A stretch of 64,000 bases of DNA from Solirubrobacterales bacterium (GTDB lineage: Bacteria; Actinomycetota; Thermoleophilia; Solirubrobacterales; Solirubrobacteraceae): the NCBI GenBank assembly GCA_027315115.1, contig DAHUYQ010000024.1:124001-188000 (forward strand). Direction: 5' to 3'. The stretch's first letter is position 1; each line of letters starts with the position of its first letter. Under the pieces are notes generated by a model. It worked only from the letters and a program-made list of their open reading frames with translations. It ran no database searches and was not told where the DNA came from. Shown one piece after another: positions 878 to 52,078 of the stretch. The translations under genes and the position numbers were made by a program.

Positions 878-1552
878 ATGGATTCCGTGAGACACCGCCG
901 CTGGGGCGCCGCGCGTATCGTGCTGCCGGTCGCGTGCTGCGCGCTGGCGATCGCCGCCACCGGCCCGGGCGCGCTCGCGGATCCGGGGCAGGCGCGGGAC
1001 ATGACCGGTGGGGGTGCGCCGCTGTCGCATCCGGCCGGTGTGGCGGATGCCATTGCCGCGACGGCAGGCATGAGCCGGTCACGGGGGCTGTCCCGCGCCA
1101 CGGGGGCGCCGCGCTCCACGGGCGCGACCGACGAGCGCACGGCGGCGAGCGCGACGCTGGAAAAGTGCGTGACCTCGCCCGAGCCGTCAGAACGCTACGC
1201 GACCTTCGCCGGCCACATGATCGCGGTGCTCGGCAGCACGGGGATGGCGATGCGGATCGGGATCGAAGATCGCCTCGCGGGGGAGCGCTTCCATCTCCTG
1301 GAAAGCGTGAGCGCTCCGGGGCTCGGGGCCTGGCGCGGCGCCGAAACGGGCGTCAAGAGCTTCAAGGACCTCAAGCAGGTAACCAACCTCAGCGTGCCGG
1401 TCGACTATCGCGGCGTCGTGCGCTTTCGCTGGACCAACTCGAAGGGCATCGTGATCAAGCACGAGACGCTCCGGACTCCCGTCTGCCGCGAGGTCGCGCC
1501 CGAAGGCAATGTTGGCGGGCAGGCGCCGACCGCTAGAATGCCCTCACGATGA
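878..1552 (+). CDS. Secreted protein of unknown function
   Basis: A 224-residue protein with a signal-peptide-like N-terminus: basic residues near 5-12, then a hydrophobic stretch [15 protein letters not shown], then an Ala/Asp cleavage region near ALADPG. An unstructured Gly/Thr/Ser/Arg stretch follows to about residue 95. The C-terminal 125 residues look like one folded domain with two cysteines, near residues 100 and 207 (...[10 protein letters not shown]..., ...[10 protein letters not shown]). I do not recognise the domain, though it resembles exported proteins I associate with Solirubrobacterales. The stop overlaps the start of rpmE (ATGA), so the two may be translationally coupled, which is odd for a secreted protein and a ribosomal protein. 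No function is assigned. Confidence 0.7.
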
Positions 1553-1791
1553 AGTCTTCGATACACCCCAACTACGTAGAGGCGCACGTGCGTTGCACTT
1601 GCGGCAACGAGTTCACGACTCGTGCGACCAAGCCGGACCTGCACGTCGAGGTCTGCTCCAACTGCCACCCGTTCTACACCGGGCGCCAGAAGCTGATCGA
1701 CACCGGTGGACGTGTCGAGCGCTTCCAGAGGCGCGTGGCGAAGGGTCGCCTGCGCCAAGCGCAGGGCGCCGCCCAGCAGACCGCCAGCTAG
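1549..1791 (+). CDS. rpmE: 50S ribosomal protein L31
   Basis: An 80-residue L31 of the zinc-binding (C+) type: MKSSIHPNY at the start, ligand cysteines at 16, 18, 36 and 39 (CTC and CSNC), and the [17 protein letters not shown] signature. It sits on the large subunit at the inter-subunit bridge. The start ATG overlaps the stop of the upstream secreted protein. Four bases separate its stop from the next gene. The C-terminal tail ([14 protein letters not shown]) is a short extension. Zinc-type L31 is replaced under zinc starvation by a Cys-less paralogue in many bacteria; none is visible here. Confidence 0.97.
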
Positions 1792-1795
1792 AGCG

Positions 1796-2914
1796 ATGGC
1801 CTCCCGTCTCGTCGCCGCATCGCAGCGCGAGACCGAGGCGGCAGCCTCAGAGATCGACGGGCTGCTCACAGCCTCGCGGGACGCGCCCGTGGGCGGTCAG
1901 GCCGTGCTCGAGGGAGTGATGATGCGCGGCATCTCCAACTGGGCGGTCGCCGTGCGCAAGCCGGTCTCGCAGGCGCCGACCACCGACCCCGCGGCGCAGC
2001 CCGTCGACCCCGCGGCGCAGACCGACTCGCAGGCCGCCGGCGCGGGCGAGGGTGGCGCGCAGAGCGGAATCGGAGACATCGAGGTCACCTGCTTCCCGCT
2101 CGAATCGGCGCTTGCTCGCCACCGTTGGCTGCGGCTGCCGATCATCAGGGGCGTCGTCGCGCTGGGCGGCTCGCTGACGATCGGCTTCAAGGCGCTTGGG
2201 ATCGCCGCCAACGCGCAGTTGCCGCAGGAGGAGGGGGAGACCCAGGAGACGCCGCAGGAGATCCCGGGCGCCGTCTGGTTCGGCACGATCGTTGTGGCGC
2301 TCGCGTTCGCGGTCGGCGTGTTCTTCCTGCTGCCGCTCGGCCTGACGAGCCTCGTCAAGAGCCAGCTTCACTCCTCCGTGCTCTTCTGGGTCGTGGAGGG
2401 CGTGCTGCGCACCGCGATCTTCCTCGGCTATCTGCTGCTGCTGACGCGCATCAAAGACCTGCGCAGAGTCTTCGAGTACCACGGAGCCGAGCACAAGACG
2501 ATCTCCTGCTTCGAGGCGGGCCTCCCGCTCACGCCGATCAACGCGCAGCGCTTCTCGCGCCTGCACCCGCGCTGCGGCACGAGCTTCCTGCTGGTCGTGA
2601 TGGTCGTCTCGATCTTCCTCTTCGGCGCGATCGGCATGCACGCCTGGTACTGGCTGATCCTGATTCGTGTGCTCGGCGTGCCGCTGATCGCCGGCATCTC
2701 CTTCGAGCTGATCAAGTTCGCGGGCCGCAACCGCCGTCGTGGCTGGGTGCGCGCGATGATGTGGCCAGGTCTGAAGCTGCAGCTTCTGACCACTCGCGAG
2801 CCCGATCTCAGCCAGCTTGCCGTCGCGATCGCGGCGCTGCAGGCGATCCTGGAGCGCGAGGACTTCGAGGGACTGACCGCCGAGGACCTCGTCGGCGTCG
2901 AGGTCGTGGCCTAA
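1796..2914 (+). CDS. DUF1385 (YqhQ-type) membrane protein
   Basis: A 372-residue member of the DUF1385/YqhQ family, named in databases as a possible metal-dependent enzyme but without a proven function. The start ATG at 1796 is chosen because upstream codons lie inside rpmE. Features are VGGQAVLEGVMMRG near residue 38, an Ala/Gln-rich spacer (residues 60-90), paired hydrophobic segments around 155-185 and 195-220, the signature FEYHGAEHKTI near 225, HPRCGTSF near 255, and two more membrane segments near 262-305. Its place between rpmE and prfA is a recurring gene order in actinobacteria and Firmicutes. The His/Glu motif could bind metal, but this is not shown. Confidence 0.9.
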   Translation: MASRLVAASQRETEAAASEIDGLLTASRDAPVGGQAVLEGVMMRGISNWAVAVRKPVSQAPTTDPAAQPVDPAAQTDSQAAGAGEGGAQSGIGDIEVTCFPLESALARHRWLRLPIIRGVVALGGSLTIGFKALGIAANAQLPQEEGETQETPQEIPGAVWFGTIVVALAFAVGVFFLLPLGLTSLVKSQLHSSVLFWVVEGVLRTAIFLGYLLLLTRIKDLRRVFEYHGAEHKTISCFEAGLPLTPINAQRFSRLHPRCGTSFLLVVMVVSIFLFGAIGMHAWYWLILIRVLGVPLIAGISFELIKFAGRNRRRGWVRAMMWPGLKLQLLTTREPDLSQLAVAIAALQAILEREDFEGLTAEDLVGVEVVA

Positions 2915-43375: not shown

Positions 43376-43757
43376 CTCTCCATTGTGGCATCGGCCATAA
43401 GCCCCGGATAAGAGAGCTCTGGGCGGGCGGGCCCGCGCATGTGCGGATGGCTCAGCGCGGCGCCTGCGGCAAAGCCGCAGAGGCGCGGGGGGAAGCCGCA
43501 AACAGGGAGAGAATGCTTGTAACGGCTATTGCAATCTCCGCGCGGTCGGCGTATGTTGATCTCAGACGCGGAACCGAGCCGCGAAAGAGCGAGGCCCAGA
43601 GGTGGAAGGCCGCGCCGCCCGTCACAGCAGAGCCTCTGGCTCGGCCGAGGCAGGGCCCTCAAAGCGGCCCGGGGCCGCGTCGGCTTGTTGTCTGGGCCCC
43701 GCTCCAGCCCACGGAGCCGCGGGCCCGGACGCTAAGCTGTGGTCATACAGCACACAT
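43376..43757. other. Gene-free interval upstream of tmRNA
   Basis: About 380 bp between the divergent site-2 protease and ssrA. I see no convincing coding signal. It must contain the tmRNA promoter; a CATACA at 43744-43749 is a possible -10, but there is no good -35. Several GC-rich inverted segments are present without clear terminator form. Confidence 0.5.
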
Positions 43758-44119
43758 GGGGACGACAGGCTTCGACGCGGTCGGCTCCGTGAGTGTGGTT
43801 GCGAGTCGAGGTGCCAGGAGGCCTCGCAAAACACCTGGCAAAACCATAAGTGCGGACTCTCACGAGTACGCCCTCGCTGCCTGATTAGAAACCAGGCGTG
43901 AGGTCTCGGCCCCCGCTCGCCTGTGGCGGGGATGACCGGGATCAGATAGCAGGCTAGCTCGGAAAGGCCCGCCTCCGCCGATCCGAGGACCACCCAGGAG
44001 GCTGGTCCCGCACAACCCGGCCGGCTAGGCGAGCGCGGGACGAGATCAGAGAGCCGGCTACGCTCGTAGACGCCATATTCACGCGACCGCGGACGCGGGT
44101 TCGATTCCCGCCGTCTCCA
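43758..44119 (+). ncRNA. ssrA: Transfer-messenger RNA (tmRNA)
   Basis: One-piece tmRNA of 362 nt. The 5' end GGGGACG pairs with CGTCTCC (44112-44118) as the acceptor stem; GCTTCGAC follows near the 5' end as usual, and the T-arm GCGGGTTCGATTCCCGC lies at 44094-44110. The resume codon GCG at 43852 opens the tag ADSHEYALAA and TGA at 43882-43884, matching actinobacterial tags ending YALAA. CCA is not encoded: after the discriminator A44119 the sequence is CTA. Works with SmpB (40835) to rescue stalled ribosomes. The 3' end is a common integration site. Confidence 0.96.
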
Positions 44120-44136
44120 CTATTGGAGTCAAGTAC

Positions 44137-44169
44137 AAACCCTGGCCGTCGGAAAGGTGGCCGGGGTTT
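44137..44169 (+). terminator. Hairpin terminator downstream of ssrA
   Basis: AAACCCTGGCC (44137-44147) pairs with GGCCGGGGTTT (44159-44169), an 11-bp stem with one T-G pair and an 11-nt loop. A T5 run follows at 44184-44188 beyond a short gap. Likely ends the tmRNA transcript. Confidence 0.65.
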
Positions 44170-44186
44170 GCTGCTTCGGGGCCTTT

Positions 44187-44414
44187 TTAGGCCGTCCAGG
44201 CGGTCTTTTGGCTGCCTCGGCCGTGGTGGTCTTGCCAAGGGGTAGGTGGGCGCCAGGCGGCGAGGGCGTCGTATACGGGCGTGAAGGTCGGTCCGAGTAC
44301 TGCGCCGTCTTCGCTGATCAGGATGCGCTTGAAGAATGCCTGGTTGAGCATGCGGTGCTCCAGCGGGCTGCTGGCTCTGTAGGTGGCGTGCGGCGTCGTC
44401 TCTCGGTGGTGTAT
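44187..44414 (-). pseudogene. Serine site-specific recombinase, C-terminal remnant
   Basis: On the minus strand an open frame ending with TAA at 44187-44189 reads HATYRASSPLEHRMLNQAFF, then KRILISEDGAVLGPTFTPVY, then DALAAWRPPTP. The pattern Y-x-A-x(5)-R-x(2)-NQAFF followed by a short beta-strand pair and a P(F/V)xxL end is the C-terminal signature of large serine recombinases. No catalytic domain or zinc ribbon lies upstream; the frame meets a stop at 44457-44459, and the abiEii gene begins its tail there. A possible frameshifted continuation (TEILLTL) is seen in another frame. Lying 68 bp from the tmRNA 3' end, it looks like the relic of an integrase. Confidence 0.62.
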
Positions 44415-44427
44415 ATCCGGTGCAGCG

Positions 44428-45681
44428 TCAGCAGGATTTCGGTCGGCGGCGGCGTCGCACTATGGACCGCTGGGACCGTGGTGCCCTCGGCCCTTGCCGC
44501 CCTGTACTGACGGGCAGCGCCACGGAGAGCTCGATGGCGTACTGCGGGACGAACGACCTGTTGGTGACGCGGACTCCCTGGATGCGGTCGACGCGGTAGC
44601 AGCGGACCTCTCCTGTGGATGCCTTGATCGCGTAGACGAGGAGGTTGCCGGCCTGTGAGCGGCGCAGTGCGTAGGGGGCGATGAGGCGCGTGGTGTCTTT
44701 GTAGGCCAACTCGACGAGGAGGTGGTTGGCTCCGGCGAAGCGGATCTGCTCGAGCGGGGCGCCACCTGGCCAGCGTGTGATCGTCGGCGGGGCCACCCAT
44801 CCTGGCTCAAGGCGTTCGCGTAGCGCCGGTACTGGCTGGAGCCGTGGCGGGATCGCTCCATCGAGCCAGGCGAACACGCCTTCGAGTGTGTCGATGAACT
44901 CCTCGATCGGAGGCAGGACAGGGAGCTGGTGCGCGAGCATCGCCTGCCAGTCGCCTCGAAGCTCGGTGAGCTTGTCGGCCGCGGTGACGAGCTCGAGTGT
45001 GGGCGCCGGCACATCCTTGTAGGCGCACTTGCGTTGCAGAACGGTGCGCACACGCTCACGGTTGTCGCGAAAGTCGGCGCGACGGTAGAGGTTGACCACG
45101 TCATATAGGTCTCGCGGGCGCGTCCGCTGCCCGAGCGCGCGCAGCTTCTCGGCGAACACCTCGACGAACGCGTAGCACTGGACGGCGCCGTCGCCGGGCA
45201 TCTCCTCGTCGTAGGCGTGAGCAATGCTGCGGCGCACGGTGGCCTCGACGACCGTCTCGTCGTATGTCAGGTCGAGCTTGACACGGGCATCTTCGGGAGC
45301 GCCCCGTGGTCCTCGGTAGTAGATGCGCCCCTCGGCCGACTGGCCGTCCGGGCGCATCCGCACGATTGGCGGGCGACTGGAGAGCATGATTCCCGTCTCC
45401 TGCTCGATCGTGTCGAGTACTTCGCTCAAGACCGGCACTAGATCATCGGGCCTGAGTGGACCGCCCTCAAGGACGGTGAAATCAAGGTCCTCGGAGAATC
45501 GGTAGGTCTCCACAAAGCACTTCTTCAAGCAGGTGCCGCCCTTGAAGATCCAGTGGTCGCGCAGGGCCGCGTGCGAGCCGATACCCCATAGCAGCCAACC
45601 CAGCACATAGTCCTTCTCCACGACCTGCTCGGTCAGTCCCCACTCGCGCGCTCGTACCTGCAGCGCCGCTCGCGAGATCAT
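44428..45681 (-). CDS. abiEii: AbiEii/AbiGii-type nucleotidyltransferase toxin with C-terminal WYL-like domain
   Basis: A 417-residue toxin of a type IV toxin-antitoxin/abortive infection system. The nucleotidyltransferase core has VEKDYVLGWLLWGI near residue 17, FKGGTCLKKCF near 46, the catalytic RFSEDLDF near 61, and FAEKLRALGQRTRPRDLYD near 175. Residues 307-384 are unlike classical AbiEii: LLVELAYKDTTRLIAPYALR, GNLLVYAIKASTGEVRCYRV, DRIQGVRVTNRSF. That order (ligand loop, EPY/APYxL, strand, RxYRxDRI) is a WYL-type domain. An Arg-rich tail (385-417) follows. ATG overlaps the abiEi stop (ATGA). AbiEii relatives add nucleotides to tRNAs or bind GTP; the present target is unknown. Confidence 0.85.
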   Translation of the reverse strand: MISRAALQVRAREWGLTEQVVEKDYVLGWLLWGIGSHAALRDHWIFKGGTCLKKCFVETYRFSEDLDFTVLEGGPLRPDDLVPVLSEVLDTIEQETGIMLSSRPPIVRMRPDGQSAEGRIYYRGPRGAPEDARVKLDLTYDETVVEATVRRSIAHAYDEEMPGDGAVQCYAFVEVFAEKLRALGQRTRPRDLYDVVNLYRRADFRDNRERVRTVLQRKCAYKDVPAPTLELVTAADKLTELRGDWQAMLAHQLPVLPPIEEFIDTLEGVFAWLDGAIPPRLQPVPALRERLEPGWVAPPTITRWPGGAPLEQIRFAGANHLLVELAYKDTTRLIAPYALRRSQAGNLLVYAIKASTGEVRCYRVDRIQGVRVTNRSFVPQYAIELSVALPVSTGRQGPRAPRSQRSIVRRRRRPKSC

Positions 45682-46478
45682 CCGCTGACCCGTGCGTTGA
45701 GACGCAGGCCCCACCTTGAGCTCGTCGGGCCGCTGACAGGACGTCCAGGGTCGAGGCTTCCGGTGCCTGCACTGCGGCGCGCCAGGCACGCCTGGATCAA
45801 CTCGTCGTCGGCCAGCCCCAACGTCTCGGCGAGATAGCCGAGGCGCTTGAACACCGTCCGGTTCCCGAGCTTGTCGCCGTAGCCAACCAGTCGCGGCCAG
45901 GCCACATCGGGAGCCTCCGCATAGACCGTCAGGGCGTCGACTGTGTGGCCTAGCCCTCCCCCGAGCGACGGATCGTCAAGGCAGTCCACCAGCGAGCGCT
46001 CTGGGTCCGACACCGCCACCGGCGTGCCGTCGCGCCACACCCGCCGCGTCCCGAACAACGCGGTCGCGGGCCGATGGCGCAACTCGAAGCGCATACCGCC
46101 GATCACCCTCTCCCGATGCGCGACCGGGCGAGCCGTGACGAATACGGTCGTGGCGAACACCTGGTCGGTCATGTCCCAATGGTGCAGCGCCGTCCATCCC
46201 CCCACATAGCCTGGTGCGAGCGCGGCCATGGCCACCGCCCACGGGTCGGCGACCCAGTGCGCCGGGTCCTCCGCTTCGAGCGGCACAGCTACGTAGAGAC
46301 CGCGCTGCAGCCGAGCTACCCAGCCCTGCTCGGCTAGATGTCGCAGCAGACGCGCGGCGCGTGCGTGCTCGACGCCAGCGACAACCGACGCATCCGCAGG
46401 CGTGAACGGACCCCGCAACTCGCGGTTCAGTCGCGACACGAATGCCCGATTTGCCGCCGATAGTCCAGCCGCCGCCAT
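45678..46478 (-). CDS. abiEi: AbiEi-type antitoxin/transcriptional regulator
   Basis: A 266-residue protein. An N-terminal winged helix (FTPADASVVAGVEHARAARL, LRHLAEQGWVARLQRGLYVA) at about 20-65 is followed by the AbiEi antitoxin domain (WAVAMAALAPGYVGGWTALH, GMRFELRHRP, VSDPERSLVDCLDDP). Antitoxins of this family both repress the operon and counter AbiEii. The stop overlaps the toxin start, so the pair is translationally coupled. An AT-rich stretch just upstream (46480-46500, with ATAGCTCTAT dyad) could be its operator and -10. Confidence 0.86.
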   Translation of the reverse strand: MAAAGLSAANRAFVSRLNRELRGPFTPADASVVAGVEHARAARLLRHLAEQGWVARLQRGLYVAVPLEAEDPAHWVADPWAVAMAALAPGYVGGWTALHHWDMTDQVFATTVFVTARPVAHRERVIGGMRFELRHRPATALFGTRRVWRDGTPVAVSDPERSLVDCLDDPSLGGGLGHTVDALTVYAEAPDVAWPRLVGYGDKLGNRTVFKRLGYLAETLGLADDELIQACLARRSAGTGSLDPGRPVSGPTSSRWGLRLNARVSG

Positions 46479-46578
46479 GCAATCATCATAGCTCTATAAG
46501 CGACGACGGGGCCGGCGTTTCTCTAGCGTCACTATACACCCGGTCAAAGGGCACGCTCTCCAAGCGCTCGGCAGACCG

Positions 46579-48336
46579 TCAGAGCGCGAGCGCTCGTGCG
46601 GCGACCCCGACCACGCTGAACAAAGCTCGGAGCCGCTCGGCGGCGGAGCCGAACACGCTTTTCGGATCGGCGCGCACGAAGCGATTCGCAGCGCGGATCA
46701 TCTCGTCCGCCGCTTGCTTCACGGGATCGTCTTGCGGGATCGAGAGGTTGGCGACGTTGGGCGCGAAGTCCTGGATCAGGCCCGGAAGCCGATCCTTGGT
46801 TGGGTTGACGTAGCCGGGAGGCGACTCGTCTTCGCCGACCGCGCGAGTTGCGCGCAGGGCGGCGACTCCCAGCTCGAAGATGCGTTCGCGCACAACGCCC
46901 AGGTCGCGCGGCTGCGCGGCGACCGCGTCGCCCAACACCTGCGCCGCGTCGGCGAGAAGCGTGGGAGCGGCGTGAGCTGACAGTCGTTGTGCCGGGACGG
47001 CGTCGCTGAGCTCGGCCAGGCGTTCTTCGTATACGACGGTCCGCATCGTGCGCGCCTTGGCCGCTTGGGGCAGTGTCGCGAGACACCGTTTTGCGCGGTC
47101 CGCCACGAGGTCGACGAGGCGCGTTGGAAGGGGCCTGTTCAATGCGGCGACGTCTGGCTCGTTGGCGGCGTCGGCAAACGCATCGGGTGCTGTCAGTGTG
47201 AGATGCGCCACGCGCTCGAGGACGGCGTCCGGGTCGAGACCGAGGTCCACGGCCGCTTTGTCCCACGTGTTGCGGTATGGGTGGACGCGGTAGTCGCCGC
47301 CGATCTTCATGGCGAATCTCAGTTCGCGCTCGTGTCGGTCGTATGGAAGCGCGGAGGCGATGTCGTACAGAGGCGCGAGACGCACGTCATCGTCGCTGAG
47401 CAAGAGCGAGTAGTTCTTCGCGTGCGCGTCGGTGCCGGCGATGAGCCAGTTCCATGCGAGCGCATCGAGGAAGCGCCACACGGCGTCCTCGGCTGCGCTC
47501 GGCGACATGACCGTGCGAAAGAGCGTGGCCAGGTCGCGCGCGGACGGGCCGCCTTCGTTCTGGTACTTCTTCTCTGGGGGCACGCCGAGGGCTTGGCAGG
47601 CGTCCTCCTGATGGATGCGCACAAGCTCACCCTTGACGATCCGGCGGTCATAGCGGTCGACGACGATGGCGCTCTCGTCGCCGAATCTGGCCACCCGAGT
47701 CCGGGCGACGACAAGCCCGGCCCGACGCGCGGCGTCAAGGCAGAGATGCTCGTTGAGGTCATGGTCGTCGAAGCCCTGGACGGCGGGCTTGAGGATGTGA
47801 CTGGTCGCGGCGGAGCCGCTGGGGACGCCCCAGCGGCCGTCCTTGAAGAGGAGTGCGGTCTTGGCTTGAGCGCCGGCGAGGCTGAACTGTCCTGTGAACT
47901 CGCGCCCCAGCCACGCCGTGCCGTCCTGTCGCAGCTCCTGGAGGCGCTGCGCGACCTGCTCGTCGGTGAGCCATGCGACCGCGCCCGGCGCTGCCAGGAC
48001 CTCGCCGGCTTCCTCGACGGGCGCGAAGCGCACGGCTCCGGCGCAGTCGTGGCCGATCGGCGTCGACAGAAGCGAGAAAGGTCTGGCGGGAACCTGGAAG
48101 TCGCGCGCCCAGCGTGCGAGGACGCGATCGTTGTCGGGGAGAAGGCCCCACAGCCACGGGCTGATCGCGGCGTCGAGATGGGAGCGGATGCTCGGCGGCA
48201 TGGAGACCGACAGCGGCGTGGCTGCGGGTCTCTGCCTGTAAGCGTCGTCGTAATCGAAGCGAAGGCGGCCTTGGCTGAGCCGGGTGATCGATCCGGCGAC
48301 GCTGTGATCGATGAGGACCGAAAGGGTGTCGGTCAT
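46579..48336 (-). CDS. hipA: HipA-family serine/threonine kinase toxin with long C-terminal extension
   Basis: A 585-residue protein. The N-terminal HipA domain (residues 1-110) is followed by the kinase: P-loop-like SLAGAQAKTALL near 152, HPILKP-type segment SHILKPAVQGF near 184, catalytic loop NWLIAGTDAHAKNYSLLL near 297 and metal-binding LAPLYDIASALPY near 320. HipA kinases phosphorylate aminoacyl-tRNA synthetases and arrest growth. The usual protein ends near residue 430; here 154 more residues run on in frame (from RTVVYEERLA to ARALAL), mostly helical, and not recognised. The start overlaps the hipB stop by 4 nt. Confidence 0.88.
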   Translation of the reverse strand: MTDTLSVLIDHSVAGSITRLSQGRLRFDYDDAYRQRPAATPLSVSMPPSIRSHLDAAISPWLWGLLPDNDRVLARWARDFQVPARPFSLLSTPIGHDCAGAVRFAPVEEAGEVLAAPGAVAWLTDEQVAQRLQELRQDGTAWLGREFTGQFSLAGAQAKTALLFKDGRWGVPSGSAATSHILKPAVQGFDDHDLNEHLCLDAARRAGLVVARTRVARFGDESAIVVDRYDRRIVKGELVRIHQEDACQALGVPPEKKYQNEGGPSARDLATLFRTVMSPSAAEDAVWRFLDALAWNWLIAGTDAHAKNYSLLLSDDDVRLAPLYDIASALPYDRHERELRFAMKIGGDYRVHPYRNTWDKAAVDLGLDPDAVLERVAHLTLTAPDAFADAANEPDVAALNRPLPTRLVDLVADRAKRCLATLPQAAKARTMRTVVYEERLAELSDAVPAQRLSAHAAPTLLADAAQVLGDAVAAQPRDLGVVRERIFELGVAALRATRAVGEDESPPGYVNPTKDRLPGLIQDFAPNVANLSIPQDDPVKQAADEMIRAANRFVRADPKSVFGSAAERLRALFSVVGVAARALAL

Positions 48337-48608
48337 CGCGTGCGATGCTCTTCGATGACTACGTCGAGGTCACGGGCCGGCCGGCCGGGGGTGGTCTGCT
48401 GGTCGCAGGTCACGTCGACGGCGAGGCCAAGGGCGTCGAGCACTCGAAGGATGAGGCGAAGCTCAGCGGTTGGCTTGCCTCCCTCGAACTGGTAGATCCA
48501 CTTGCGGGAGACGCCGGCGCGAGCGGCCAGCTCCGCCTGACTGAGGCGGAGATCCATGCGGCGGCCCCGGACGACGGCGGCCAGGTCTCTGATCGATCGG
48601 ACTTTCAC
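48333..48608 (-). CDS. hipB: HipB-type antitoxin, XRE-family DNA-binding protein
   Basis: A 91-residue protein. The helix-turn-helix is LSQAELAARAGVSRKWIYQFE (residues 22-42 in two parts), followed by GGKPTAELRLILRVLDALGL, the standard HipB dimer fold. It should neutralise HipA and repress the operon. The final residues (DLDVVIEEHRTR) could form the HipA-contacting tail. A strong promoter with paired CCG-box motifs lies directly upstream. Confidence 0.93.
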   Translation of the reverse strand: MKVRSIRDLAAVVRGRRMDLRLSQAELAARAGVSRKWIYQFEGGKPTAELRLILRVLDALGLAVDVTCDQQTTPGRPARDLDVVIEEHRTR

Positions 48609-48623
48609 GGGCGTCCTTTGCTA

Positions 48624-48664
48624 CCGTTCGGTTGCAAGTATACTATGATCCCGTACGGTGGCAA
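48624..48664 (-). promoter_or_regulatory. hipBA promoter with paired operator-like boxes
   Basis: Read on the minus strand: TTGCCA (complement of 48659-48664), 16-nt spacer, TATACT (complement of 48637-48642). The -10 lies in the perfect palindrome AGTATACT (48637-48644). Two similar boxes flank it: CCGTACGG (48651-48658, itself a palindrome) and CCGTTCGG (48624-48631). This fits HipB autorepression. Confidence 0.65.
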
Positions 48665-48978
48665 GCTGGTCGTGAGACCGGTCGGTGGCTGCTGGGGAAC
48701 TGGCGGCGCAGCCATAGGAGGTGCGCGACATCGGCGTTGGGACAGTCCGATCTCGCTGGTGCCCCAGCGCCGGCCGGCTACCGTCGAACAGATGGACGCC
48801 TCGCTATCTAACATCTGGTCACCCATCTGCGCGACGTTTGGACGCCAGGAGAAGGCTGCCGAAGCAGCATCAACCGGCCCGAGCCGGTCGTCGGCCAGGC
48901 CGCCTGACTCCTGCCTGGCTCGCACAGGCGTCGCGAGTCGGACGGGCGCTCACCGTGAGCCGCGCCGGCGCGCGATCG
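48665..48978. other. Gene-free interval after the toxin-antitoxin segment
   Basis: About 310 bp between the hipBA promoter and the ArsC-like gene's stop. No convincing ORF, RNA gene or repeat is seen. A copy of the ssrA 3' end, which would mark the far border of an integrated element, was looked for and not found. Confidence 0.5.
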
Positions 48979-49350
48979 TCAGCCGTCGCAGAGCAGCTCG
49001 AGCGCCCGCTCGATCGGGCGAGCCAGGACGGCGCGCTCGCCGTTCACCACGATCGGGCGCTGCACGAGCGCCGGATTGCCGCTCATCAGCGCGATGAGCT
49101 CGTCGTCGGACATCTCGCTCTCCCGCAGGCCGAGCTCCTCCACGAGCGGCTCTCGCAGGCGCAGCACCTCGCGCGGGCCGCTGCCCATCTTGCACAGCAG
49201 CTCGCGCAGCTCGCTCTCCCCGATCCCGGTCGCGTGATAGTCGATCGACTCGAACTCGGCGCCGTGCTCGGCCAGTAGCGCACGCAGCTTGCGACAAGTG
49301 GTGCAGGTCGGCTTTTCGTAGACCTTCAGGGGGGGCACGGGACCGATCAT
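48979..49350 (-). CDS. ArsC/Spx-family thioredoxin-fold protein
   Basis: A 123-residue protein starting MIGPVPPLKVYEKPTCTTCR. The ArsC-family active-site loop is PTCTTCRKLRALL (CxxC form; the first Cys is the arsenate reductase nucleophile). The family arginine region is ALVQRPIVVNGERAVLARP. YfgD-like arsenate reductases and Spx-type regulators share this fold; the CxxC and short length do not separate them. No arsenic transport gene is nearby. Start at ATG 49350. Confidence 0.85.
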   Translation of the reverse strand: MIGPVPPLKVYEKPTCTTCRKLRALLAEHGAEFESIDYHATGIGESELRELLCKMGSGPREVLRLREPLVEELGLRESEMSDDELIALMSGNPALVQRPIVVNGERAVLARPIERALELLCDG

Positions 49351-49466
49351 ATGCGTGGCGCTCCTGCGTCGCGCGACCCCGTCGCGGACGCGATGGCGCC
49401 GCACTCAGGAAACTCCCAGCTTTCTCGCCATACTCGTGACATATGTGGCGAACATGGCGGATGCGC

Positions 49467-49570
49467 GGATTCGAGCGAGATTCAGGCGGCGGCGATGCCT
49501 GAGGAGCCGCACGGCGGCGAGGTTAGGCATCTGTTCATAGGATTCGAGCGAGATTCAGGCGGCGGCGATG
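49467..49570 (+). repeat. 31-bp direct repeat covering the response-regulator start
   Basis: Identical 31-bp segments at 49467-49497 and 49540-49570 (beginning GGATTCGAGCGAGATTCAGG, ending GGCGGCGATG), 73 bp apart, with similarity continuing seven bases further (CCTGAGG versus TCTGAGG). Each copy ends in an ATG; the second is the response-regulator start. Confidence 0.9.
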
Positions 49571-49575
49571 TCTGA
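49495..49575 (+). CDS. Possible 26-codon leader ORF overlapping the response regulator start
   Basis: From the ATG in the first repeat copy (49495) the frame reads MPEEPHGGEVRHLFIGFERD then SGGGDV and stops at TGA 49573-49575, inside the first codons of the response-regulator gene. It probably arose by duplication of the gene start. Translation could couple to the downstream gene; coding status is unproven. Confidence 0.3.
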   Translation: MPEEPHGGEVRHLFIGFERDSGGGDV

Positions 49576-50266
49576 GGCCGCCAAGCATCGCGTTCTCGTC
49601 GTAGACGACGAACCGAACATCGTCGAGCTTGTCTCGATGGCGCTCGTGTTTCACGGGTTTGCCGTGGAGGGCGCCGGCGACGGTCGCGAGGCGATCGCCA
49701 AGGCGGCCAGCTTCAAGCCCCACCTGATGATCCTCGACGTGATGCTGCCCGACATGGACGGCTTCGAGGTCGCCCGACGCCTCGGCGCCCAACGGGCGGG
49801 CATCCCGATCATCTTCCTGAGCGCGCGCGACTCCACGCAGGACAAGGTCAGGGGACTGAGCGGCGGCGGCGACGACTACATGACCAAGCCGTTCAGCCTC
49901 GAGGAGCTGATCGCGCGCGTGCAGACGGTTCTGCGGCGCAGCGGCCAGGCTTCGCCCGAGTCCTCGCAGCTCGTCTTCGGCGATCTGGAGCTGGACGAGG
50001 AATCCAGGGAAGTCAGGCGTGCCGGAGAGCCGATCGAGCTGACGCCGACCGAATACCGGCTGCTGCACTACCTGATGATCAACCCGCGGCGGGTGCTGAC
50101 GCGCGCGGAGCTGCTCGATCACGTCTGGGAGTACGACTTCGGTGGCGACAGCCGCGTGCTGGAGACCTACATCAGCTACCTGCGAAAGAAGATCGACGCC
50201 AGCGGTCCCTCGATGATCAGGACCGTTCGCGGGGTGGGCTACGGCCTGCAGCGTCCGAAGGGGTAG
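49568..50266 (+). CDS. OmpR/PhoB-family response regulator
   Basis: A 232-residue protein. The receiver domain (residues 8-120) has acidic pair VVDDEP, phosphoacceptor Asp57 in MILDVMLPD, Thr/Ser in FLSARD and Lys in MTKPFSLEEL. The C-terminal winged helix (135-228) has ELTPTEYRLLHYLM, VLTRAELLDHVW and TYISYLRKKID, RTVRGVGYGL. It is followed 5 nt later by its histidine kinase. Similar to MprA/TcrA/PrrA of mycobacteria; the regulon is unknown. The ribosome-binding site is weak, and the start region is duplicated upstream. Confidence 0.95.
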   Translation: MSEAAKHRVLVVDDEPNIVELVSMALVFHGFAVEGAGDGREAIAKAASFKPHLMILDVMLPDMDGFEVARRLGAQRAGIPIIFLSARDSTQDKVRGLSGGGDDYMTKPFSLEELIARVQTVLRRSGQASPESSQLVFGDLELDEESREVRRAGEPIELTPTEYRLLHYLMINPRRVLTRAELLDHVWEYDFGGDSRVLETYISYLRKKIDASGPSMIRTVRGVGYGLQRPKG

Positions 50267-50271
50267 CCGCG

Positions 50272-51783
50272 ATGGCCGCGGCGCTGCGCAGGATCTCGAC
50301 GGCCTCGTTGCACACGCGGGTGCTTGCCAGCGTGCTCGCGCTGTCCGCCGTCGGGCTGATCGCCCTCGCGGCGGTCACGTACTTCGAGCAGCGCTCGTTC
50401 CTGGAGAGTCGTGCCAACCAGCAGGCCAAGGCGGCGGTGCCTGTGATCTCCGACGCTCTGGAGGGCGGGCACGACACCGGCGACGCGCAGGGCGGCCGCG
50501 ATGGCGCGCCGGCCCAGGGAGGCTCCGGCGGCGGCCTGAGCCCGAGCACGAGCACGAGCCCGGCCCCCAGCCTGCCCCCAGGCACCTACGGTCAGCGCCG
50601 CACCTACGCCGGCAAAGTCACCGGCTCGCTCTTCATCACCTACGGCGAAAGGCAGCCGCCGGCGCCCAAGCTGCCTGCGAGCGTCCCGATCGGGACGCTC
50701 TTCACGGTCGACGCCGCCGGCTCCTCGGGCCTGCAGTACCGCGTCTATGCCACGCGGGACCCGGACTCGCGGGAAGTCACGATCGCGGCGGTGCCGTTGA
50801 CCGACGTGGAGGAGACGCTGAGCCGGCTGCTGCTGGTCGAGGGCCTGGTGATCCTCGGCGTGCTGCTCGCGCTGGGGCTGAGCGCGTTCTTCGTCGTGCG
50901 CCTGGGCCTGCGGCCTCTGGACCGGATCGAGGCGACGGCGGGCCAGATCGTCGCCGGCGACCTCACAAAGCGCGTGAGCCCCGCCGAGCAGCGCACGGAG
51001 GTGGGACGGCTGGGGTTGGCGCTGAACGCGATGCTCGACCGTCTGGAGGAGGCCTTCGCCCAGCGCAAGCGCAGCGAGGAGCGCCTGCGCCAGTTCCTGG
51101 CCGACGCCTCACACGAGCTGCGTACGCCGCTGGCGTCGATCCGCGGCTACGCCGAGCTCTTCCGGATGGGCGCGACCGAGCAGGCCGGCGGCGCCGAGGC
51201 CGCGATGCGGCGGATCGAGGACGAGTCCAAGCGCATGGGCCTGCTGGTCGAGGACATGCTGCTGCTCGCGCATCTCGACGAGGAGCGGGAGCTGCGCACG
51301 GCCTCGGTGGACCTCGCCCAGCTCGCTCGCGACGCCGCCGCCGACGCATCGGCGATCCAGCCGACGCGCACGATCGGCGTGGATGCTCCCGAGCACGCCT
51401 TCGTGGAGGGGGACCCGCATCAGCTCCGCCAGGTGCTCGGCAACCTGACGCGAAACGCGCTCGTGCACACGCCGGTGTCCGCGGCGATCGAGATCTCCGT
51501 CGCCGAGACGGACGATCACGTGAGCATCCGCGTGCGCGACCACGGGCCGGGGTTGCCGGCCGGCTCCCGCGAGCATCTCTTCGAACGCTTCTGGCGCTCC
51601 GAGGCCGGGCGAGAGCGTGGCAAGGCCGGCGCCGGGCTGGGCCTGGCGATCGCGAAGAGCATCGTGGAGGCGCACGGCGGCTCCATCAGCGCCGGCGACG
51701 CGCCCGGTGGCGGCGCCGCGTTCGTGGTCGAGCTGCCGCGCGTCTCGCCCCGGCCGCAGTCGCGCAACAACAGCGTTCGGTAG
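50272..51783 (+). CDS. Sensor histidine kinase
   Basis: A 503-residue membrane kinase. First membrane helix at 17-37 (VLASVLALSAVGLIALAAVTY), an extracytoplasmic sensor (38-185) holding a Gly/Ser/Pro/Thr low-complexity stretch (about 75-105), second helix near 190-212 (LLLVEGLVILGVLLALGLSA), HAMP domain 213-265, H-box ASHELRTPLASIRGYAE near 285, N-box NLTRNALVHT, G1 RDHGPGLP, F-box FERFWR and G2 GAGLGLAIAKS. Architecture is that of MprB/TcrY-type actinobacterial kinases. Cognate to the preceding regulator. Confidence 0.95.
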   Translation: MAAALRRISTASLHTRVLASVLALSAVGLIALAAVTYFEQRSFLESRANQQAKAAVPVISDALEGGHDTGDAQGGRDGAPAQGGSGGGLSPSTSTSPAPSLPPGTYGQRRTYAGKVTGSLFITYGERQPPAPKLPASVPIGTLFTVDAAGSSGLQYRVYATRDPDSREVTIAAVPLTDVEETLSRLLLVEGLVILGVLLALGLSAFFVVRLGLRPLDRIEATAGQIVAGDLTKRVSPAEQRTEVGRLGLALNAMLDRLEEAFAQRKRSEERLRQFLADASHELRTPLASIRGYAELFRMGATEQAGGAEAAMRRIEDESKRMGLLVEDMLLLAHLDEERELRTASVDLAQLARDAAADASAIQPTRTIGVDAPEHAFVEGDPHQLRQVLGNLTRNALVHTPVSAAIEISVAETDDHVSIRVRDHGPGLPAGSREHLFERFWRSEAGRERGKAGAGLGLAIAKSIVEAHGGSISAGDAPGGGAAFVVELPRVSPRPQSRNNSVR

Positions 51784-51883
51784 CGCTTTCGGTCTCTCAG
51801 GCTGCTATCAGCGGAGCTCAAAGCTCGTCTGAGGCTCGCGGGCAACCCTGTGTGCACAACGCAAACGACAGGAAGGAACGCGG

Positions 51884-52078
51884 ATGTCAATCGCGCTCGT
51901 GATCGCACTCAACTTGATCTTCGTGCTGCTCGCCGCGGCGCCCGTGCTCGGAATGGCCCTGAGGGCGGCGTCGCAGGAAGCTCGCGGGGAGCGTCGTGCC
52001 GTCCGCCCGCGCGGCGTCCGCGCAGGCAGGCCCGCACGTGCCTATGGCCTGCCCGCCGCGCCGGCTAGCATCCGGTGA
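51884..52078 (+). CDS. Small single-span membrane protein
   Basis: 64 residues with one N-terminal hydrophobic helix (IALVIALNLIFVLLAAAPVLG) and a basic Arg/Pro/Ala-rich tail. AGGAAGG (51870-51876) sits 7 nt before the ATG, a better ribosome site than most genes here, which supports expression. Its stop abuts the GTG start of the DUF1697 gene. Function unknown. Confidence 0.62.
   Translation: MSIALVIALNLIFVLLAAAPVLGMALRAASQEARGERRAVRPRGVRAGRPARAYGLPAAPASIR

Follow-up and report, generated by a model that had tools for sequence, protein, structure and literature searches.

A predicted AbiE operon from a Solirubrobacterales bacterium encodes an AbiEii toxin of a WYL-bearing subclass

The AbiE operon

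The window analyzed here is a stretch of 64,000 nucleotides from a Solirubrobacterales bacterium (assembly GCA_027315115.1, contig DAHUYQ010000024.1), and its subject is a pair of minus-strand genes that form a predicted AbiE toxin–antitoxin operon (Table 1). The toxin frame is open from an ATG at position 45681 to its stop at 44428 and joins an AbiEii nucleotidyltransferase core to a C-terminal tail. An original prediction made from the letters of the window had described this product as an AbiEii toxin fused to a WYL-like domain. All four segments that it had quoted as evidence were found in the toxin frame in the order stated, and the core proved to be complete and in the same frame as the tail, with Pfam assigning the former to PF08843 (E = 6.3e-42) and the latter to the WYL family. 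The four DUF1814 motifs of AbiE type IV toxins, as defined by Dy et al. 2014 (PMC3985639), are all present in the core: motif I as G48-G49, motif II as R61/D65/D67 with 15 residues separating G49 from D65, motif III as K179/R186, and motif IV as R190-D191-x-x-D194. Each of these columns is either invariant or conserved to at least 90% among 29 aligned sequences; G48, G49, K179, D191 and D194 are among the fully invariant ones. Pfam revealed no domains other than AbiEii and WYL in the toxin chain at E ≤ 1, and the helix–turn–helix (HTH) that marks WYL regulators of the PafBC, BrxR and CapW type is absent from it.

The upstream gene encodes a protein with matches to PF13338 (6.7e-8) and PF09407 (1.5e-4), both over the Pfam cut-off, and to the PADLOC model of AbiEi (5.8e-67). 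Its stop codon overlaps the toxin start (ATGA). Toxin core and AbiEi antitoxin both look intact, and by its domain content the operon is an AbiE type IV toxin–antitoxin system with a toxin from a WYL-bearing subclass of AbiEii.

Table 1 Features of the predicted AbiE operon and its surroundings (positions in the window)
Feature	Position	Strand	Basis
abiEii-WYL toxin gene, 417 amino acids	44428..45681	-	open frame; PADLOC AbiEii PDLC02317, residues 1-391, 5.7e-133
AbiEii nucleotidyltransferase core, residues 30-262	44896..45594	-	Pfam and motif columns
WYL domain, residues 311-372 (Pfam), ~307-383 by conservation	44566..44751	-	Pfam, conservation, profile comparison
Arg-rich C-terminal end, residues 386-417 (start approximate)	44431..44526	-	10 R or K among last 32 residues
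abiEi, antitoxin/autorepressor type, 266 amino acids, HTH and C-terminal AbiEi domain	45678..46478	-	PF13338, PF09407; PADLOC AbiEi
HipA-type kinase toxin gene and small HTH gene	46579-48608	-	HipA_C 7.2e-52, Couple_hipA 2.6e-17
Short palindromes and 8-base inverted repeat, possible AbiEi operator	46560-46599
Transfer-messenger RNA (tmRNA) gene	43758-44122	+	tag ADSHEYALAA
38-base direct repeat	49467-49577		97% identical, starts 73 bases apart

Identity of the C-terminal domain

The tail of the toxin matched PF13280 at 23.8 bits (E = 4.4e-5), the gathering score being 21.8; with a margin of 2 bits, this match is modest. Among its relatives in one clade of AbiEii proteins (clade A, described below), six of seven scanned proteins passed the cut-off (the window protein, L002, L011, L012, L013 and L020), while L009 from Rhodothermales remained below it at 11.9 bits. 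A distant group of three further proteins (group B) was also below the cut-off, with 14.4 bits for L015, 12.6 for L016 and no reported WYL match for L014. By hhalign, 15 tails aligned to 17 canonical WYL domains from the same class with a probability of 99.4% (E = 7.5e-22, 76 columns). The comparison is not wholly independent, as it was the tail profile that had first retrieved these canonical domains. Those canonical domains that were scanned (10 of the 17) were all PF13280, at 2.9e-15 or better. A PDB search with the tail profile returned seven chains at E ≤ 1, the best being PafBC (0.0015) and CapW (0.12); the remaining ones were two named WYL-domain chains, two 'transcriptional regulator-like' chains, and one lectin. 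Five columns (Y327, P336, Y337, F377 and P379) are identical in all 15 tails. The W-Y-L tripeptide that contains the Y196 site of PafB is not kept in the toxin, which has L347-L348-V349 instead. However, this tripeptide is present in only a subset of WYL domains (PMC4012209, PMC11804915) and therefore does not define the family.

The narrow Pfam margin of the toxin, the weakness of the PDB matches and the low scores of L009 and group B would fit an unrelated extension that happens to resemble a WYL domain. This explanation has to contend with the hhalign result, with the retrieval of PF13280 domains by the tail profile and with the number of clade A proteins that pass the cut-off, and we regard it as very improbable. 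A chance or mis-framed tail was ruled out as well, since the segment lies in frame and its conservation extends across 20 proteins. The assignment to the WYL family made in the original prediction was thus right, given the match over the PF13280 cut-off and the family profile comparison: by these profiles, the C-terminal WYL domain of the toxin is genuine.

Distribution and phylogeny

With a profile of the AbiEii core built from 12 tailed proteins, intact cores of clade A reached at least 289 bits, and intact cores without a tail at most 257 bits. Full-length relatives were present in three of 101 genomes of the family, with two copies in the genome from which the window derives. In that genome (G000, 3.3 Mb), 13 places match AbiEii at E ≤ 0.001; 11 of these exceed the Pfam cut-off and two have the WYL tail. 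The paralogue L002 and the relatives elsewhere ruled out a fusion private to this genome. When 249 genomes of the class were searched with the tail profile, 12 places in 10 genomes scored at least 103 bits; the next best match, from the canonical WYL group, reached 47.6 bits. Each of the 12 places proved to be an AbiEii gene, namely the two own copies, nine loci checked by tblastn, and G105:C92 (L119), which ruled out unrestricted sharing of the tail among other proteins. Five of them (L043–L046 and L119) are broken by frame changes, reflecting either decay or assembly error. On plasmids, tail queries matched AbiEii in 4/4, 7/7 and 7/9 records, the two exceptions in the last query being an unannotated stretch and a WYL protein with a short, weak match. 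Among 30 AbiEii loci obtained from 119 class genomes by a PF08843 search, six had the tail (two of them broken copies) and 24 had none, a tally that is no census because the loci were the best-scoring ones.

The tailed architecture was also detected in Rhodothermales (L009 with 42% and L010 with 41% identity), on Rhizobium and Thiodictyon plasmids (44–45% identity over 94%), in two genomes of a single other family of the phylum (L109 and L110) and on two IMG/VR contigs (L121 and L122). One member of the IMG/VR pair lies close to an integrase gene, the other close to genes for a primase/helicase, a DNA methyltransferase and a ParB-like protein. Scans of IMG/VR with a single protein as query, and with group B, gave no useful result, and in the annotated phages three records matched, with the core only. 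At the Rhodothermales locus L009 (1555-5155, plus strand), two AbiE operons stand in tandem; the first toxin frame comprises 224 amino acids and is tail-less, the second is full length.

In a tree of 43 cores, the 17 clade A proteins formed one clade (100/99), and the next-joined rows, L086 and L112, were tail-less (97/90). The tail was present in all 17 clade A proteins and absent in all 23 neighboring AbiEii proteins of the tree. The search for further AbiEii proteins with the same tail, which the original prediction had proposed, thus yielded this clade and the distant group of three. Its statement that classical AbiEii proteins lack the tail agrees with the 23 tree sisters and, as judged with the tail profile, with 24 of the 30 fetched class loci; tail-less relatives have open frames of 268–330 amino acids. 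It had also held that a tail shared by the whole subclass as part of the core would refute its proposal. Such sharing is what we observed: every intact clade A member found carries the tail, which is therefore a fixed part of this AbiEii subclass.

Basic residues and the C-terminal end

Equivalences to PafB were derived from the alignment of the tail to 6sj9 and from the spacing of the residues that is given for PafB of M. smegmatis (PMC11804915). Residues R332, R360, R363 and R366 of the toxin occupy the positions of PafB R181, R208, R211 and R214, which are basic residues of the ligand groove. Binding of single-stranded DNA (ssDNA) by PafB is abolished by R181A, by Y196A, by the R211A/R214A pair and by the R181A/R204A/R208A triple, with R208 tested only jointly with R181 and R204; the corresponding pair mutation in PafC did not abolish binding (PMC11804915). 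In clade A, arginine occurs at the four positions in 15, 15, 14 and 13 of 17 proteins, respectively, as counted from 12 aligned rows and from L010, L109, L110, L121 and L122, which were read by eye.

The toxin continues past the WYL domain into an Arg-rich end (Table 1), an additional feature that was absent from the original prediction. Among 20 tailed proteins, a CxxC...H...C motif follows the WYL domain in nine, an Arg-rich end in four (the window protein included) and another extension in one. We refer to the motif as zinc-finger-like, a descriptive label, as Pfam finger models match it below their cut-offs. The ends of L109, L110, L121 and L122 were judged on stop-to-stop frames.

A real but degenerate WYL domain carried along as a passive passenger, with no present role in control, might have been suspected from the L-L-V in place of the tripeptide, from the variation of the basic positions among relatives and from the five broken copies in the class. 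The retention of the tail in every intact clade A protein across deep divergence, together with the five columns identical in all 15 aligned tails, makes such a passenger quite improbable.

Group B and the antitoxin

AbiEi lies directly upstream of the toxin in all 17 clade A loci, being cut by the locus end in L010, L040, L041, L042 and L047. Using a five-sequence AbiEi profile, whose five members were left out of the counts, we detected AbiEi in 15/15 clade A and 20/20 tail-less loci tested (35/35 together). This profile also found AbiEi in the tail-less loci L021 and L022, where single-query tblastn had missed it. Group B comprises plasmid-borne copies from Sinorhizobium (L014), Streptomyces (L015) and Sphingomonas (L016), and the five-sequence profile detected AbiEi in none of their three stretches of ~25 kb (best E = 0.49, and 0.42 in another run with the same outcome). 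With three records only, two of them close (L014 and L016 are 78% identical), group B is no basis for a rule. Its tails scored 102–105 bits with a tail profile that itself included them, and it falls apart from clade A in the core tree. A single origin of all 20 tails was not rejected (p-AU, from the approximately unbiased test, 0.197 with 29 rows and 0.42 with 43 rows); the fusion may have arisen either once or twice. The Streptomyces locus (1529-2653, plus strand) has a gene for a nucleotidyltransferase with a SMODS domain (5.7e-11), as in cyclases of the cyclic-oligonucleotide-based antiphage signaling system type, directly before the AbiEii-WYL gene and on the same strand. The Sinorhizobium copy is accompanied by a DUF3800-like protein (below the cut-off) and by another nucleotidyltransferase downstream. 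Around the isolated Sphingomonas copy, the genes have annotations that are either hypothetical or unrelated.

These distributions bear on the idea that the WYL domain is a protein–protein module for dimerization or for docking of AbiEi or another partner, without any nucleic acid involved. The constant presence of AbiEi in clade A would be in line with it, as would the Rhodothermales proteins L009 and L010, which keep the fold columns although their basic set is lost. Yet tail-less AbiEii proteins have AbiEi as well (20/20 tested), group B has the tail in the absence of a detected AbiEi, and toxins and antitoxins of type IV are defined as non-interacting (PMC3985639). We thus consider such a module unlikely.

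A possible nucleic-acid gate

Taken together, the tail most likely binds single-stranded nucleic acid and either gates or targets the toxin. The best explanation in our view is a nucleic-acid-gated AbiE toxin, which we put forward tentatively and with somewhat less than even confidence. The WYL domain would bind ssDNA or single-stranded RNA (ssRNA) through R332, R360, R363 and R366, perhaps aided by the Arg-rich end, and ligand binding would gate the nucleotidyltransferase. While AbiEi would keep the system quiet during normal growth, single-stranded nucleic acid produced when a phage infects or a plasmid enters would set the toxin free or guide it. The toxin might then stop growth, perhaps through the addition of nucleotides to the 3′ ends of tRNA, as its MenT relatives do. 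There is precedent for both types of ligand, as ssDNA acts as the switch of PafBC by binding to its WYL domains (PMC11804915) and RspWYL1 binds ssRNA (PMC6547453). The arginine positions kept in most of clade A, the tail fixed in 17/17 of its proteins, the 12/12 strong tail matches on AbiEii in the class sample and the zinc-finger-like or Arg-rich ends of the tails also count in favor of a gate. The suggestion of the original prediction that the toxin may carry its own switch is plausible. Its further suggestion that a ligand, rather than only AbiEi, governs activity meets divided evidence: AbiEi beside 17/17 clade A toxins counts against a ligand replacing it as governor, and group B, with a WYL-like tail and no detected AbiEi (3/3), counts for it.

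Several observations weigh against a nucleic-acid gate. PafB Y196 corresponds to L348 in the toxin, a position that is hydrophobic in all 12 aligned clade A rows, and PafB R204 corresponds to T356. The Rhodothermales proteins L009 and L010 lack all four arginine positions and L109 lacks two, while in group B the first two positions are R and K, and R363 and R366 are missing (L015 has K at the last one). Because of these losses, nucleic-acid binding via the arginines cannot be general. An end past the WYL domain is not universal either, since six of the 20 proteins stop at the end of the domain or at most seven residues past it. The tRNA step is borrowed from MenT, as the study of S. agalactiae AbiEii reports GTP binding but no target (PMC3985639). 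Finally, AbiEi is kept throughout clade A, so that a second switch is not required there.

Alternatively, the WYL domain could serve as a substrate tether that keeps the RNA target of the toxin (e.g., tRNA) close to the active site and determines which substrate is chosen, without sensing infection. The zinc-finger-like or Arg-rich end would then provide a second grip. On another enzyme, the TePif1 helicase, a C-terminal WYL domain is reported to bind ssDNA and to be crucial for activity (PMC9964779), and MenT relatives of AbiEii modify tRNA (PMC11375011). The coupling of the tail to one enzyme family in the class sample (12/12) and the retention of AbiEi in clade A point in the same direction. 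On the other hand, tail-less sisters with full-length cores exist, also with AbiEi, and a tether is therefore not needed for core activity. The Rhodothermales proteins, which have lost the basic set, speak against a grip on RNA that all members share, and the arginine losses weaken gate and tether alike. Group B without AbiEi is more easily understood as gated and leans toward the gate, whereas the coupling to one enzyme family leans toward the tether. We consider the tether possible and somewhat less likely than the gate. Returning to the nucleic-acid gate, a stronger version would make AbiEii a one-protein sensor-effector in which single-stranded nucleic acid or a nucleotide messenger, bound by the tail with its zinc-finger-like or basic end, switches the enzyme; group B would then have dispensed with AbiEi, and the Streptomyces cyclase could supply the ligand. 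This extension appears improbable to us.

Genomic surroundings

The HipA-type gene and the small HTH gene immediately precede the AbiE operon and share its strand, and a HipA-family gene is likewise annotated close to the AbiE operon of the Rhizobium plasmid L011. The palindromes and the inverted repeat upstream of abiEi overlap the 3′ end of the HipA gene. Just past the 3′ end of the toxin gene lies the tmRNA gene, which is convergent with it. Integration into the tmRNA gene was considered, but no repeat of its end of at least 15 bases was listed within 43700-52000. The direct repeat of Table 1 is situated at the start of a response-regulator gene.

Comparison with known systems

To our knowledge, the trigger of AbiE toxins during phage infection has not been settled. 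A subclass of AbiEii with a domain of the nucleic-acid-sensor type in the same chain would permit a direct test of whether AbiE senses nucleic acid, and the small group seemingly devoid of an antitoxin adds to its value for this purpose.

The domain pair itself has been described before. An 'AbiGII-like nucleotidyltransferase (DUF1814)' is among the fusion partners of WYL named by Makarova et al. 2014, who predicted a role of WYL in sensing ligands, e.g., modified nucleotides (PMC4012209); AbiEii is a DUF1814 protein (PMC3985639). Those fusions thus share with the window toxin both the domain pair and the idea of ligand sensing, although that paper devotes a single sentence to the fusion and does not mention AbiE by name, and its examples need not belong to clade A (PMC4012209). 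Within the literature searched, it was the only paper to contain both DUF1814 and WYL, and no paper testing an AbiEii-WYL fusion was found in this search, which missed most subscription journals. The idea of an own switch that senses a ligand is accordingly not new but in print since 2014, and since the architecture has been in print equally long, the operon is not so much a discovery as a good test case. Some modest aspects may be new: that the tail is fixed in one clade, that it has arginines at the PafB positions which the Rhodothermales proteins have lost, that zinc-finger-like ends alternate with Arg-rich ones, and that group B occurs without AbiEi. In PADLOC, the model PDLC02317 (396 positions) aligns to core and tail of the toxin together; it is labelled only AbiEii and leaves the WYL part unmarked. 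As it spans both parts, a defence database already covers the subclass.

Among WYL proteins, PafBC (PMC6789036, PMC11804915), DriD, CapW, BrxR and a WYL-bearing Pif1 (PMC9964779) have homologous domains with basic groove positions. An HTH is found in more than 90% of WYL proteins (PMC6789036); the window toxin differs from the WYL regulators in having none, in bearing the domain on a toxin and in not keeping the tripeptide and the tyrosine at the PafB Y196 site. With AbiE type IV systems (PMC3985639) and MenAT (PMC11375011), the operon shares the AbiEi–AbiEii pair and the four DUF1814 motifs; to these, its toxin adds a C-terminal WYL domain and an Arg-rich end.
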